Shown: positions 12,363-17,420 of the stretch, piece by piece
Layout of the letters: every line of letters begins with the position of its first letter
How positions within the stretch are numbered: position 1 is the stretch's first letter
Assembly: GCF_016403105.1 (NCBI RefSeq)
Contig: NZ_CP046155.1
Location: 3,129,906-3,193,905 of the forward strand
From: Leptolyngbya sp. BL0902
GTDB taxonomy: Bacteria; Cyanobacteriota; Cyanobacteriia; Phormidesmidales; Phormidesmidaceae
DNA: 64,000 bases
Direction: 5' to 3'
The notes under the pieces: generated by a model
What the model was told of the DNA's origin: nothing
Seen by the model: the letters and a program-made list of their open reading frames with translations, nothing else
The model's database searches: none
Made by a program: the position numbers and the translations under genes

Positions 12363-15281
12363 CTAGCGACTGGAGACAGCTGCGTAGGTTTGGATCAAGG
12401 TTTCGGCCTGGTCAGCGGTGAGGGATCGAGCGACGAGAAAACCCTGGATGGCGTCGCAGTTCAGTTCCCGCAGGCGCTGGGCTTGGAATTTGGTTTCCAC
12501 ACCTTCAGCCACAACCGCCATACCGAGGGATTTGGCGATTTGAATAATGGCGGTGACGATACTGACGTCATCGTGGTCAATGTCGATATTTTCGACAAAG
12601 GACTGGTCAATTTTGAGGGTGTCGATGGGAAACCGCTTGAGGTAGCTGAGGGACGAGTAGCCCGTACCAAAGTCATCAATACTGATGCTGACGCCCATCC
12701 GTTGCAGGGTGGATAGGGTACTTAGCACCAATTCTCCGTGGCTGAGCAGCATACTTTCGGTGACTTCTAGGCCCAGGCTGGTGGCAGGCAGCCCGGTGCG
12801 CCCCAGCATAGCGGCAACATAGTCAGGAAATTCAGGCTGTTCAAATTGGGCGGCGGCAACGTTGACATTCACCCGCAGGGATTGGGTCGAAGATCGCCGT
12901 TGTTGCCAGGTGGCCATCTGCCGACAGGCGGTTTCAAAAATCCAATCACTGAGGGGCACCATCAGCCCAGTTTCTTCGGCCAGAGGGATGAAGTCGATGG
13001 GGGCAACGAGGCCCCGCTGGGGATGCTGCCAGCGCACCAGAGCCTCGAAGCCCACCAGGGTTTGGCTGGCCAAATGCACAATAGGCTGATAGTGCAGCAC
13101 AAATTCCTGCCGTTCTAGGGCTTGGCGCAGGTGGGTTTCCATTTCAAAAAGCTGGATTGCGCTTTCGTGCATGGCAGGGTTGAAAATTTCGTAGTCTGAG
13201 GACGGCCCCCTGGCCTTGGCTCGATACATGGCATTGTCGGCGTCGCGCAGCAGGTCGTCGCCCCGCTGGTATTTGGGGCTGCCCAGGGCCACGCCCAGGC
13301 TGGCAGAGGTGAAAATAGTGTGCCCCATCACCGTAAAGGGGGCTTTCATGTCGGTTTGGATGCGCTCGACCACCTGGATCACCTCGGTGACGGTGGCAAT
13401 GGATTCCAGCAAAATCACAAACTCGTCCCCGCCTAAACGGGCCACGGTGTCGGCACTGCGAATGTGGCGCAGCAATACCTGGGCAATCTGAATCAACAAC
13501 TGATCCCCTACCAGGTGGCCCAGGCTGTCGTTGATCACCTTGAAGCGGTCGAGATCAATAAACAGCACCGCAAATTGCTGATCGGGGTAGCGCTTGGCCC
13601 GCTCCAGCGCCCAATCAAGCCGTTCGGTGAACAAGGTGCGGTTGGGGAGTCCGGTGAGGGCATCGTGGAGGGCTTGGTGGCGTAGTTCCTCTTCGGCTAG
13701 TTTACGGTCGCTGATGTCAATAAAGGTGACGACCACTTGGTTAATCTGTTGCTGTTCATCAAAGGTGGGGAAGGCGTTGATTAAGGCCCAGGTGCAGTCC
13801 TCGGGCTGTTCAGAATGACGAATGCCGACCAGTTGATTTTCCATGGGTCGCCCCGTCGCCAAGACTCGGTTGACCGGATACTGTTCCACCGGAATGAGGG
13901 TGCCGCTTTCGTCCATCAGGGGCCAGGTGGGTTCCAGTGCCCCTTGGCCCAAAATGTCTTCCACAGGGAATCCTAGGAGCTGCGACCCCATGCGATTGCA
14001 CATGGTGATGGTGGTATCCGGCGCATGGACGATCACCCCCGCTTGCAGATGATCCACCAGCAGGCGATAGTTGGCTTCGCTGTGGCCCAACCGTTGCAGC
14101 GCCACCGCTAGCGATTGGGTCTGTTCCTGAAGGGCTTGGTTGGCCTGGGCCAGGGCTTCGGTGCGTTCCTCCACCCGCTGCTCTAGGTTGGCCAGGGTAG
14201 ATCGTACCTGGGTAGCCATATGGTTAAAGGCATCGGCCACCGCTGCAAATTCGTCCTCCCCGGTCAGTTCCAGGGGCTGATCGAGATCTTGTCGGGCAAT
14301 GCGTTCTGCCGCCGCCACCAGTTGATCGAGGGGCTGGATAATCCGCCGCCCCAGCAGCACACTGGCCCCCACCGCCAGGCCCAGGGCACTCAGGGCCGTT
14401 ACCACCAGAGCCGCACTGCTTTGGTGAGCGGTGCGAGCCAGGGCTTGGCGGGCATAGTCTGATCGTTCCTGGGCCTGCTGGCCGATCTCGTCCAGAATTT
14501 GGTCAATGTCGCGGTTGATATTGCTCGATACAATGCGGCTCACCTGCACCTGTTGGTCTAGCAGCAGCAGCGATCTCATACTTGCCAGGTAGGTCTGGGC
14601 AAGGGCTCGGTTTTCCGCCGTCCACCCCGCCCCAAGGGGTTGGGCCAGGGCCCGATCAGCCTGGTCTAAGCTGCGCTGAAGATCGCTGAGGTAGGCCGGG
14701 TTGTGGGTACTCATGTAGGCTTGCTGCTGAGCCAACAGTTGCCACAACTGAACCTCTAGGGTTGGGTTTTCGGTCGCGGCTATCGCCTCGGCCAGCGACC
14801 GCAGCTTGGGGTAGAGGTTGTGGTGAACCCCATCGCCGCTCACCTGCTGGATGGTGCCTTGGAAGGCCATCTCATAGTTTTCAAAGAGCGCAGCTAAAAG
14901 CGCAAAGGAGGGGGCAAAATCGGCGTCTTTTGCGGTTAATTCCTTCAGATCGGTGAGGTTTTCCCTTGCCCGTGCTAGATACTGCTCGTTGGTTTCGATA
15001 TAGTGCTGACTGCGCCGGGGATCCTCCCCCTGTCGCCAGCGATCAAAATATTCCCGTTCGGCCCGACGGGCCAGCAGAAAATTCCGTTGCAGCCGCAGGC
15101 TCAGTTCCCGCACTTGGTGAGCCTGGTTGAGGGTGGTTTGGCTGTGGTAGCGCAGCCGCTGCAAGCTGCTGTAGCCAATCACTGCACTCAGGCCGTGGAG
15201 AATCAAAATCACCCCAAACCCCAGCCGTAGCTGACCGCGAATGGTTTTGGGCATATATCGGCAGAGCCAAGCCATCTTCAT
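12363..15281 (-). CDS. Membrane-bound GGDEF-EAL c-di-GMP enzyme with periplasmic sensor and PAS
   Basis: Makes and/or degrades the second messenger c-di-GMP. Order in 972 residues: TM1 about 19-37, an all-helical extracytoplasmic domain 38-287, TM2 288-311, HAMP 312-365, coiled coil, PAS 397-528, GGDEF 533-693 and EAL 709-955. The GGDEF motif is intact (617-621), with an RxxD inhibitory site at 608-611, and the EAL motif is intact (746-748) with DDFGTG at 869-874 and EGVET at 926-930, so both activities are possible. Its ATG overlaps the stop of the solute-binding gene by four bases, with GGAGG upstream. The coupling suggests that the lipoprotein is its ligand sensor. Confidence 0.93.
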   Translation of the reverse strand: MKMAWLCRYMPKTIRGQLRLGFGVILILHGLSAVIGYSSLQRLRYHSQTTLNQAHQVRELSLRLQRNFLLARRAEREYFDRWRQGEDPRRSQHYIETNEQYLARARENLTDLKELTAKDADFAPSFALLAALFENYEMAFQGTIQQVSGDGVHHNLYPKLRSLAEAIAATENPTLEVQLWQLLAQQQAYMSTHNPAYLSDLQRSLDQADRALAQPLGAGWTAENRALAQTYLASMRSLLLLDQQVQVSRIVSSNINRDIDQILDEIGQQAQERSDYARQALARTAHQSSAALVVTALSALGLAVGASVLLGRRIIQPLDQLVAAAERIARQDLDQPLELTGEDEFAAVADAFNHMATQVRSTLANLEQRVEERTEALAQANQALQEQTQSLAVALQRLGHSEANYRLLVDHLQAGVIVHAPDTTITMCNRMGSQLLGFPVEDILGQGALEPTWPLMDESGTLIPVEQYPVNRVLATGRPMENQLVGIRHSEQPEDCTWALINAFPTFDEQQQINQVVVTFIDISDRKLAEEELRHQALHDALTGLPNRTLFTERLDWALERAKRYPDQQFAVLFIDLDRFKVINDSLGHLVGDQLLIQIAQVLLRHIRSADTVARLGGDEFVILLESIATVTEVIQVVERIQTDMKAPFTVMGHTIFTSASLGVALGSPKYQRGDDLLRDADNAMYRAKARGPSSDYEIFNPAMHESAIQLFEMETHLRQALERQEFVLHYQPIVHLASQTLVGFEALVRWQHPQRGLVAPIDFIPLAEETGLMVPLSDWIFETACRQMATWQQRRSSTQSLRVNVNVAAAQFEQPEFPDYVAAMLGRTGLPATSLGLEVTESMLLSHGELVLSTLSTLQRMGVSISIDDFGTGYSSLSYLKRFPIDTLKIDQSFVENIDIDHDDVSIVTAIIQIAKSLGMAVVAEGVETKFQAQRLRELNCDAIQGFLVARSLTADQAETLIQTYAAVSSR

Positions 15282-16711
15282 CGCACCTCCGTTGCCTGGG
15301 CCAGGTATTGCAGGGCTGTAGCCTGGAGTTGATCGGCAGCGATGCGGGGATCTTCGCCGTCATAGATACGGTGAATGGCGTTAGTAATGGCCATCGCCAC
15401 CCGGTTCCACTGGGGGTGCAAGACAACGGTGGGGCGCGATGTCCGCATCGCTGTTTGCACCGTCAGAGCGTAGTTCAGATCCATGGCTTCGGTGTAGACC
15501 GACGGCGTCAACCAACTGGAAAAGCGCGGTGCCCCCCCGGTGGCTACGGCAATTTTGGCCTCCATGGCGGCACTGGTTGCCCACTGGATAAATAACCAAG
15601 CCGCCGAGGGCTGGGGTGATGTTTTCGGGATTCCTAGCCCCCAAAGCCAGTGGCCCGTCAGGCTTTGGCCCTGCCCTAGGGGCAGCCCTGCATAGCCCAC
15701 ATCTCCAGCAATGGCAGAGGTGACAGGATCTTCAAAACTGGGGCCAAACAGGCTGGCGTCAATGTAAAAGGCGGCTTTTCCAGCGCGGAACAGGTCGGTG
15801 GCCTCGGCCCAGTCCATCTGTTTAATGGTGGGTGGCCCAGCCCGCATCAGGTTGGCATAGGTGGTCAACCCGGCCACAATACGCGGGTCGGTCATGCGGG
15901 GGCGGCTCCAGTCGCCGTCAAACCAGAGGTTAAAGGGCAGCGGCGTAGGATCATTGCCCCACTCATTCAGCACAACCCCCGTCACCGTATCAATAATCGT
16001 GTCGGCGGGCACACCCCGCAGCACCATGCCCACCGCCTCTCCGCTGGCATTGATTTGGCTGGCGGCTTGCACCAGTTCCACCATGGTTTGGGGCACTCGC
16101 CCATCCAAAAAGCGATTGACCAGTCGCTGGTTGTAAAACAGGATGTAGACCTCCACCGTGGCCGGGATCCCAAACAACGCAGCACCCTCATCACCGGGGG
16201 GAAACATCGCCGTCTGCCGAAAGCCCTCTGGAAAATCGTAGAGGTTGTAGTCGCGGGCGGTGAGGGTAGGGTCGTGGATGAAAGGGGTCAGGGGTTGGAG
16301 ACAGTCCCTTTGCCAGAGGCGATAGGCGGTGGAGTCCATCGGCAAGAAGAACACATCAACATCCGATCCCTCGCGATGGAGAGCCGCTTCCATCTCGGTA
16401 AAATAGTCCGACTCTGGCACCACTTCAAGGTTCAGGGTCATCCCTGTTATCGCCTCAAACTCGCCCAAGTGGGGGCGCAGTCCGGTCGTCCAGGGATGAT
16501 CATTCAACAAGAGATGCAGCGCCGTTCCCGCAAATTGCCGCCCCATCTCCCCATTGGGTTGCGTAGAGTCTTCCTCGGGCTCATCAACCACGGGAGGCAG
16601 AGCAGGCGGATGACAACTTGTCGCTAGGCTGGGCAGCAAACCCGACGCCAGCGCCAGCTTCAGCAGGTGCCGACGGGGAAAAGCCCCAAAACGATCCCAG
16701 GGATCTGGCAT
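15278..16711 (-). CDS. Extracellular solute-binding lipoprotein, family 1 (Tat-type signal)
   Basis: Periplasmic binding protein resembling sugar/oligosaccharide ABC receptors. The N-terminus has twin arginines (FPRRHLLKLALASG) and a lipobox ending at Cys33 (LATSC), so it is probably exported folded and lipid-anchored. The body shows family features such as VDVFFLPMDSTAYRLW, GIPATVEVYILFYN and AWLFIQWATS. No permease or ATPase gene is adjacent. Instead the downstream, four-base-overlapping gene is a GGDEF-EAL receptor. A sensory rather than transport role is therefore inferred; a transporter elsewhere in the genome is not excluded. Confidence 0.85.
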   Translation of the reverse strand: MPDPWDRFGAFPRRHLLKLALASGLLPSLATSCHPPALPPVVDEPEEDSTQPNGEMGRQFAGTALHLLLNDHPWTTGLRPHLGEFEAITGMTLNLEVVPESDYFTEMEAALHREGSDVDVFFLPMDSTAYRLWQRDCLQPLTPFIHDPTLTARDYNLYDFPEGFRQTAMFPPGDEGAALFGIPATVEVYILFYNQRLVNRFLDGRVPQTMVELVQAASQINASGEAVGMVLRGVPADTIIDTVTGVVLNEWGNDPTPLPFNLWFDGDWSRPRMTDPRIVAGLTTYANLMRAGPPTIKQMDWAEATDLFRAGKAAFYIDASLFGPSFEDPVTSAIAGDVGYAGLPLGQGQSLTGHWLWGLGIPKTSPQPSAAWLFIQWATSAAMEAKIAVATGGAPRFSSWLTPSVYTEAMDLNYALTVQTAMRTSRPTVVLHPQWNRVAMAITNAIHRIYDGEDPRIAADQLQATALQYLAQATEVR

Positions 16712-17095
16712 GGCAAGCGACCTTGTAACGATGATCCTAGGCTGTAGATCTCAAGACAGCAGGCTCGGCATGGGAGAGCCGCTCACAGGCACGAAGGCTA
16801 CCGCCCAGCCCTGCCCCCAGCTCCAATTTTCCCACCGTCAGGGGCAATCGCTTCAGGATAGCGACCCTACTCCAAGGCTGTTCTCCCATTAGAACCCCTA
16901 GGAACTCGGAACATGCCCAGAGAAAGCCCCGCTGTGTCACAGATCGTTACATTTCTCGATTGTTCTTCATTGAAGAATACCGATCCCAACCATCGAAAAT
17001 CACGATGGCTGCTCCCTTTGCCCCCACACCCCCACTCCGGTGGGCCATTCCCACGCCTATTCAGCACCTAGCCAAGGGGTTCCCGTGTCGAATAG

Positions 17096-17111
17096 TTAAC
17101 ATTTATTTACA
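17096..17111 (+). promoter_or_regulatory. HLR1-like site (RpaB) upstream of psaA
   Basis: TTAACA-TTTA-TTTACA fits the HLR1 consensus of two (G/T)TTACA hexamers spaced by four bases, with one mismatch in the first hexamer. RpaB binding to HLR1 controls photosystem I genes in model cyanobacteria. The site is about 200 bases before the likely psaA transcription start, further than usual, so function is uncertain. Confidence 0.45.
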
Positions 17112-17291
17112 AAAAGTGCCTATTCGAGAATCAATCGGCCCAAAAACTCGCTACTTAATTGAGTTTTGTTAATAGCCCCTATATCTGAGTTCAATTTTGT
17201 GATCAAAGGATTTTTGGAATGCCCACAAATCAAGGGTTTCCGCAGGTTGAATTATTGTTAACCTGTGCCAAGAACCGTCAATTTACGCGAC

Positions 17292-17297
17292 TATAAT
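17292..17297 (+). promoter_or_regulatory. psaA: psaA -10 box TATAAT
   Basis: A consensus -10 hexamer about 125 bases before the psaA ATG. No good -35 hexamer is seen 16-18 bases upstream, as is common for activator-dependent cyanobacterial photosystem genes. It implies a leader of about 115 bases. Confidence 0.5.
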
Positions 17298-17420
17298 GCT
17301 CAAGAGCAATCACCGTCCGAGGAGCGGTTATACCGACAGGCCCCAGGGCCGAGGGTATAGTGACCCCCAAGGCGATATGATGCTCGCTGTTTGCTTTTGT
17401 CTAGAGAGAGGAGAGTCTCC

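Follow-up and report, generated by a model that had tools for sequence, protein, structure and literature searches.

On the minus strand of the Leptolyngbya sp. BL0902 genome, two adjacent genes share four nucleotides, ATGA. Both lie within the window, a 64,000-nt stretch of contig NZ_CP046155.1 (3,129,906 to 3,193,905), and all coordinates below are relative to this window (Table 1). The upstream gene encodes a solute-binding lipoprotein (SBP). The downstream gene encodes a membrane receptor with the order TM, helical periplasmic domain, TM, HAMP, PAS, GGDEF, EAL. A first-pass annotation of this DNA had described a Tat-type lipoprotein gene overlapping that of a membrane c-di-GMP enzyme; both reading frames are present as described, with residues R13, R14, and C33 kept. 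The SBP gene and psaA/psaB are transcribed divergently (window 16712-17420), an arrangement seen also at locus L004 and absent from the other loci read. A further SBP_bac_8-type SBP is encoded about 1.3 kb upstream of the window start (L091:7633-8706), with no BPD-type permease close by. Scans for promoters (five promoter-like sites, 2.3 expected) and terminators (six terminator-like sites, 5.3 expected) were uninformative.

Table 1. Features of the SBP-receptor locus, in window coordinates.
Feature	Position	Strand	Basis
Solute-binding lipoprotein (SBP) gene, 477 aa, CUT1/MalE-like (SBP_bac_1 / SBP_bac_8)	15278..16711	-	ORF, profile matches
Tat-type signal peptide (RRHLLKLAL...), ending at lipobox-like Cys33 (LATSC)	16613..16675	-	Sequence, ortholog conservation
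SBP solute-binding fold, residues about 81-403	15503..16471	-	Domain and conservation analysis
Shine-Dalgarno GGAGGT within SBP 3' end, for downstream receptor gene	15285..15290	-	Sequence
SBP stop/receptor start overlap ATGA; alternative receptor ATG at 15275	15278..15281	-	Sequence, ortholog junctions
Membrane GGDEF-EAL receptor gene, 972 aa	12363..15281	-	ORF, domain search
Receptor periplasmic sensor domain, residues about 41-287, predicted bimodular helical bundle	14421..15161	-	Hydropathy, AF2, Foldseek, Pfam
Receptor HAMP, residues 309-360	14202..14357	-	Domain search
Receptor cytoplasmic PAS, residues about 404-527	13701..14072	-	Domain search
Receptor GGDEF domain, residues 537-692	13206..13673	-	Domain search; motif GGDEF 13419-13433
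Receptor RxxD I-site, residues 608-611	13449-13460	-	Motif alignment
Receptor EAL domain, residues 717-952	12426..13133	-	Domain search; EAL 13038-13046

Most orthologous loci share the ATGA junction, and in nearly all of them the receptor start overlaps the SBP stop. Variants include a 10-bp overlap (L004); TAATG or TGATG (L013, L015, L084, and L133); and a gap of 2-5 nt (L132). Flanking genes differ from locus to locus; the pair and its overlapping or near-touching junction persist down to 55% SBP identity. In BL0902, a good Shine-Dalgarno sequence (15290-15285) precedes the overlapping ATG by 3 nt and the in-frame ATG at 15275 by 9 nt. This spacing suggests that the true receptor start may be the second ATG, in which case coupling would still be tight.

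The SBP matches Pfam families SBP_bac_1 (1.3e-21) and SBP_bac_8 (9.5e-20), the sugar type of SBP that characterizes CUT1 carbohydrate importers. Among aligned orthologs, the twin arginines are nearly invariant and the lipobox cysteine is invariant. Conserved patches in the fold include PATFEAYILFYN, DTVTG, IDASLFGP, GHWLWGLG, and GGAPRFSSW; another, HPWT (residues 72-75), directly precedes it. PDB profile matches (up to E 0.001) are of the sugar/polyol type, namely binders of sorbitol, trehalose/maltose, and sulfoquinovosyl glycerol, and no chain named PotD or PotF is among them. Sulfoquinovosyl glycerol was considered as the ligand through the SmoF profile match; the sequence gave no pocket assignment. 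An AF2 model of the SBP (pLDDT 43) was too poor and was set aside.

The receptor has hydropathy peaks at residues about 17-40 and 288-308, which delimit about 247 periplasmic residues. This agrees with the 250-residue helical domain proposed in the first-pass annotation, as does an all-helical AF2 model. Both catalytic motifs and the inhibitory RxxD site had also been called intact, and so they are: RxxD (608-611), GGDEF (617-621), EALVRW, and DDFGTG. All 15 aligned receptor relatives keep RxxD and GGDEF, and all but one (ESL) keep EAL. Carriers of the pair have receptors with intact catalytic motifs save for two of 17, in which the receptor gene is damaged and the SBP gene intact: one has a 256-residue deletion and a frameshift (L010:9401-11498, genome G416), and the other a frameshift at the GGDEF motif (L132:8685-11587, genome G387). 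Either may be an assembly error.

No Pfam family accounts for the sensor domain, which has just a weak CHASE3 match and chance matches; its significant PDB sequence matches are confined to the TM2/HAMP part. The AF2 model (mean pLDDT 74.9, built on 17 sequences) has very long first and last helices, with five or six shorter helices between. Foldseek matched this model to the McpS ligand-binding domain (probability 1.00, TM to target 0.55-0.61) and to TorS of the TorS-TorT complex (probability 0.98, TM 0.49). For McpS, PilJ, and TorS together, probabilities were 0.96-1.00, but E values were 0.01-0.3, and these matches stood among generic helical proteins. The fold thus modelled is predicted to be a bimodular helical bundle like those of McpS and TorS. 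Both TorS and CtpL are under SBP control, exerted by TorT and PstS respectively, and CtpL has a helical bimodular sensor (PMC6321045). Such a fold can therefore serve SBP docking. The sensor is also the fastest-diverging part of the receptor, with mean identity to the BL0902 domain of 45%, versus 76% for GGDEF.

One profile for the SBP family and a separate one for the sensor domain, run on 65 genomes of BL0902's order, identified the same 17 genomes. The two genes are adjacent every time, and neither occurs alone (nominal Fisher p 5e-16, ignoring shared ancestry). The operon comparison across cyanobacterial genomes that the first-pass annotation had proposed thus yielded an adjacent pair in every carrier and a conserved junction across the loci read. 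In phylum-wide samples, the sensor domain was found in two of 386 genomes and the SBP in the same two of 292 (BL0902 and G170). A Crocosphaera MAG outside the order (L013) also has the pair, perhaps acquired by transfer. The conserved junction and shared distribution indicate that the pairing is more than chance. At five loci (L009:8410-12603, and also L007, L008, L011, and L012), a response regulator and then a multi-PAS histidine kinase follow the pair on the same strand, after about 110-140 bp; the L009 response regulator has an Hpt domain. These genes and the pair perhaps form an extended operon in part of the clade.

Outside cyanobacteria, the nearest SBP relatives (45-48% identity) were found by plasmid search in Shinella, Ensifer, and Aminobacter. 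Each belongs to a complete sugar-ABC operon that also encodes a pair of permeases and an ATPase, next to genes for GntR, ROK, SIS, and a GMC-oxidoreductase-like protein (annotated choline dehydrogenase). In a quick tree, read without the L155 row, the importer SBPs branch beside the cyanobacterial ones. Patches common to both are HPWT, FEAYILFYNK, DTxTG, DASxFGP, GHWxWG, and GGAxR, and residues H72, D318, W357, and R396 are common to importer SBPs as well. Retention of these residues and patches argues for retained solute binding. Together with the importer context, the shared patches make the SBP look recruited: as judged from these sequences, its ancestor probably served a sugar importer, and the binding site has probably been retained. 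A clue to the ligand comes from the neighbours of the closest importer SBPs in rhizobia (L144:2230-11106, L145, and L146), namely genes for GntR, a ROK kinase, a SIS protein, and a GMC-type oxidoreductase. The ROK and SIS genes hint weakly at an amino sugar or something similar.

This distribution rests on partial sampling, comprising a contig scan, the plasmid search, and 397 genomes of Shinella's order; the contig scan missed the 48% relatives later seen in plasmids, so the non-cyanobacterial range is incompletely sampled. The 397 genomes gave only two strong SBP matches, and permeases were present around each; at L155 the permeases are about 2.8 kb from the SBP match. More distant relatives (25-33% identity) mostly adjoin permeases, and those of spirochaetes and Thioploca adjoin histidine kinases. 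In the tree, the c-di-GMP-linked SBPs form one group (100/100 support) apart from the kinase-linked SBPs. The first-pass annotation had held that homologous SBPs sitting with ABC permeases, and not with GGDEF-EAL genes, would count against its proposal. Such SBPs are found outside the cyanobacteria; inside the cyanobacterial clade there are none.

Indeed, no permease or ABC ATPase is encoded within 5 kb on the same strand at 15 orthologous loci, none of which has the linked permease pair and ATPase of a CUT1 importer. Neither adjoins the BL0902 pair, as had been noted at first pass; one has to go about 125 kb along the genome to reach a BPD_transp_1 permease. The SBP could feed a permease encoded elsewhere, with the link to GGDEF-EAL merely co-regulating uptake with c-di-GMP. 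Several SBPs sharing one permease are known in general; the nearest SBP relatives belong to importers; and CUT1-like transporters are present elsewhere in the BL0902 genome. However, each CUT1-like permease pair whose surroundings were read has its own adjacent SBP, and the SBP is never seen without the sensor among the 65 genomes. Moreover, the closest transporter candidate is without a close orthologue in four of the 17 carriers (G387, G391, G410, and G419) and is present in many non-carriers. The distribution of this candidate differs from that of the pair, which speaks against a shared distant permease and against service to the genome's own CUT1 transporter; we consider such an arrangement quite unlikely.

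An SBP that both delivers solute to an unlinked permease and signals through the sensor has a model in the maltose-binding protein, which serves its transporter and the Tar chemoreceptor. The patches kept in common with importer SBPs would suit this dual role, and other SBPs with both functions are known (PMC6321045). Yet the sole candidate permease examined does not co-occur with the pair across carriers, which leaves a dual role unlikely. Alternatively, the sensor might, like McpS, bind a small ligand by itself, the SBP being a co-expressed independent protein or ligand scavenger. Direct binders (McpS and PilJ-type domains) are among the best fold matches, and the rapid divergence of the sensor is consistent with direct sensing. 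On the other hand, perfect co-occurrence and overlapping genes predict partnership, and TorS, of similar fold, uses an SBP. Direct sensing thus appears very unlikely.

The conserved overlap, perfect co-occurrence, absent permeases, and conserved catalytic sites favour a dedicated sensory pair over an uptake system. To this extent, the one-operon nutrient sensor of the first-pass annotation stands; docking, ligand class, and output direction we infer. The Tat-exported, lipid-anchored SBP would bind a carbohydrate-like solute in the periplasm and dock on the bimodular helical sensor of its overlapping-gene partner. The resulting change, relayed via TM2 and HAMP, would shift the balance between GGDEF (synthesis) and EAL (breakdown), and thereby alter c-di-GMP. 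By this account the SBP would have been recruited from a CUT1 sugar ABC importer, with the binding site kept and the transporter lost. It is likely that the pair constitutes a dedicated two-protein SBP-gated c-di-GMP receptor, with logic like that of NspS-MbaA but with an SBP from another family, tethered by lipid. This conserved two-gene unit, present in some filamentous cyanobacteria, probably senses an external nutrient rather than imports it. The evidence leans, too, toward a broader proposal: that a carbohydrate-importer SBP became the lipid-tethered gate of a bifunctional c-di-GMP enzyme, an independently arisen, sugar-sensing counterpart of NspS-MbaA whose sensor family would be new and dedicated to docking of the SBP.

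The first-pass annotation had also likened the pair to receptors controlled by periplasmic proteins, and NspS-MbaA bears this out in both logic and gene order (PMC9993111, PMC8079147, PMC8967002). There too, the SBP gene is directly upstream of a membrane GGDEF-EAL gene and overlaps it, by 3 bp in Sinorhizobium and 16 bp in Vibrio (PMC9993111). In Vibrio cholerae and Sinorhizobium meliloti, the bifunctional output is under SBP control (PMC8079147, PMC8967002). The BL0902 receptor has the MbaA plan: a periplasmic domain between two TM segments, followed by GGDEF and EAL. However, NspS is a PotD homologue, whereas the only PDB matches of the BL0902 SBP are sugar/polyol-type binding proteins; by this criterion, applied to sequence, the BL0902 pair is outside the NspS-MbaA family. 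In addition, the BL0902 SBP is a predicted Tat lipoprotein, unlike NspS; its receptor has canonical catalytic motifs, compared with SGDEF and EVL in MbaA; and its type is found in cyanobacteria, whereas the published NspS-MbaA survey concerns proteobacteria.

ScrB-ScrC of Vibrio parahaemolyticus is similar in that a periplasmic protein switches the output of a bifunctional GGDEF-EAL enzyme encoded in the same operon (PMC10269520). A third gene of that operon, ScrA, makes the signal; no such constant third gene accompanies the BL0902-type pair. TorT is an SBP of another type. The predicted sensor fold resembles that of TorS, on whose helical sensor TorT docks in solved structures (3o1h), but TorS output is through a histidine kinase, and no sequence kinship with the BL0902 system was found. 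The CUT1 importers of Shinella, Ensifer, and Aminobacter are kin to the SBP and share its patches, but their operons include no c-di-GMP enzyme. ArtI with STM1987 is a further case of a periplasmic binding protein acting on a c-di-GMP enzyme, and only SBP_bac_3, among 27 families of the periplasmic-binding-protein clan, has been studied in c-di-GMP networks (PMC8846402). Adjacency itself is no proof of control: three Pseudomonas aeruginosa SBPs encoded near sensor kinases gave no sign of activating them (PMC11113362). The two carriers with a damaged receptor gene beside an intact SBP gene also count against the receptor reading.

Cyanobacterial c-di-GMP sensing is best known for light, with several photoreceptors listed (PMC8846402). 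If the pair is indeed a dedicated receptor for a solute outside the cell, probably a sugar-like one, then dissolved organic matter or neighbours would be linked to biofilm formation or motility. Moreover, the importer relatives, at 48% identity, would allow the change of an SBP's partner from permease to receptor to be studied as a natural experiment, and would open a direct path towards the ligand.

Elsewhere in the same SBP family, spirochaete relatives have no permeases beside them; their genes immediately precede those for a LytS/YesM-type histidine kinase and a response regulator (L019:532-4873, L021:1-4123, and L030:3236-7435). These loci are a second SBP-receptor coupling in the family. 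Homology between their kinase sensors and the BL0902 sensor was sought and none was detected (hhalign probability 1%). In Thioploca, the SBP stop overlaps the start of a hybrid histidine kinase with sCache and HAMP domains (L082:7734-11557). Given this sCache domain and the non-homologous spirochaete sensors, the BL0902-type sensor is not common to SBP-linked receptors. One Spirochaeta locus (L022:7539-13210) combines an SBP with two permeases and a related histidine kinase, and may represent a stage between use in import and use in a receptor.
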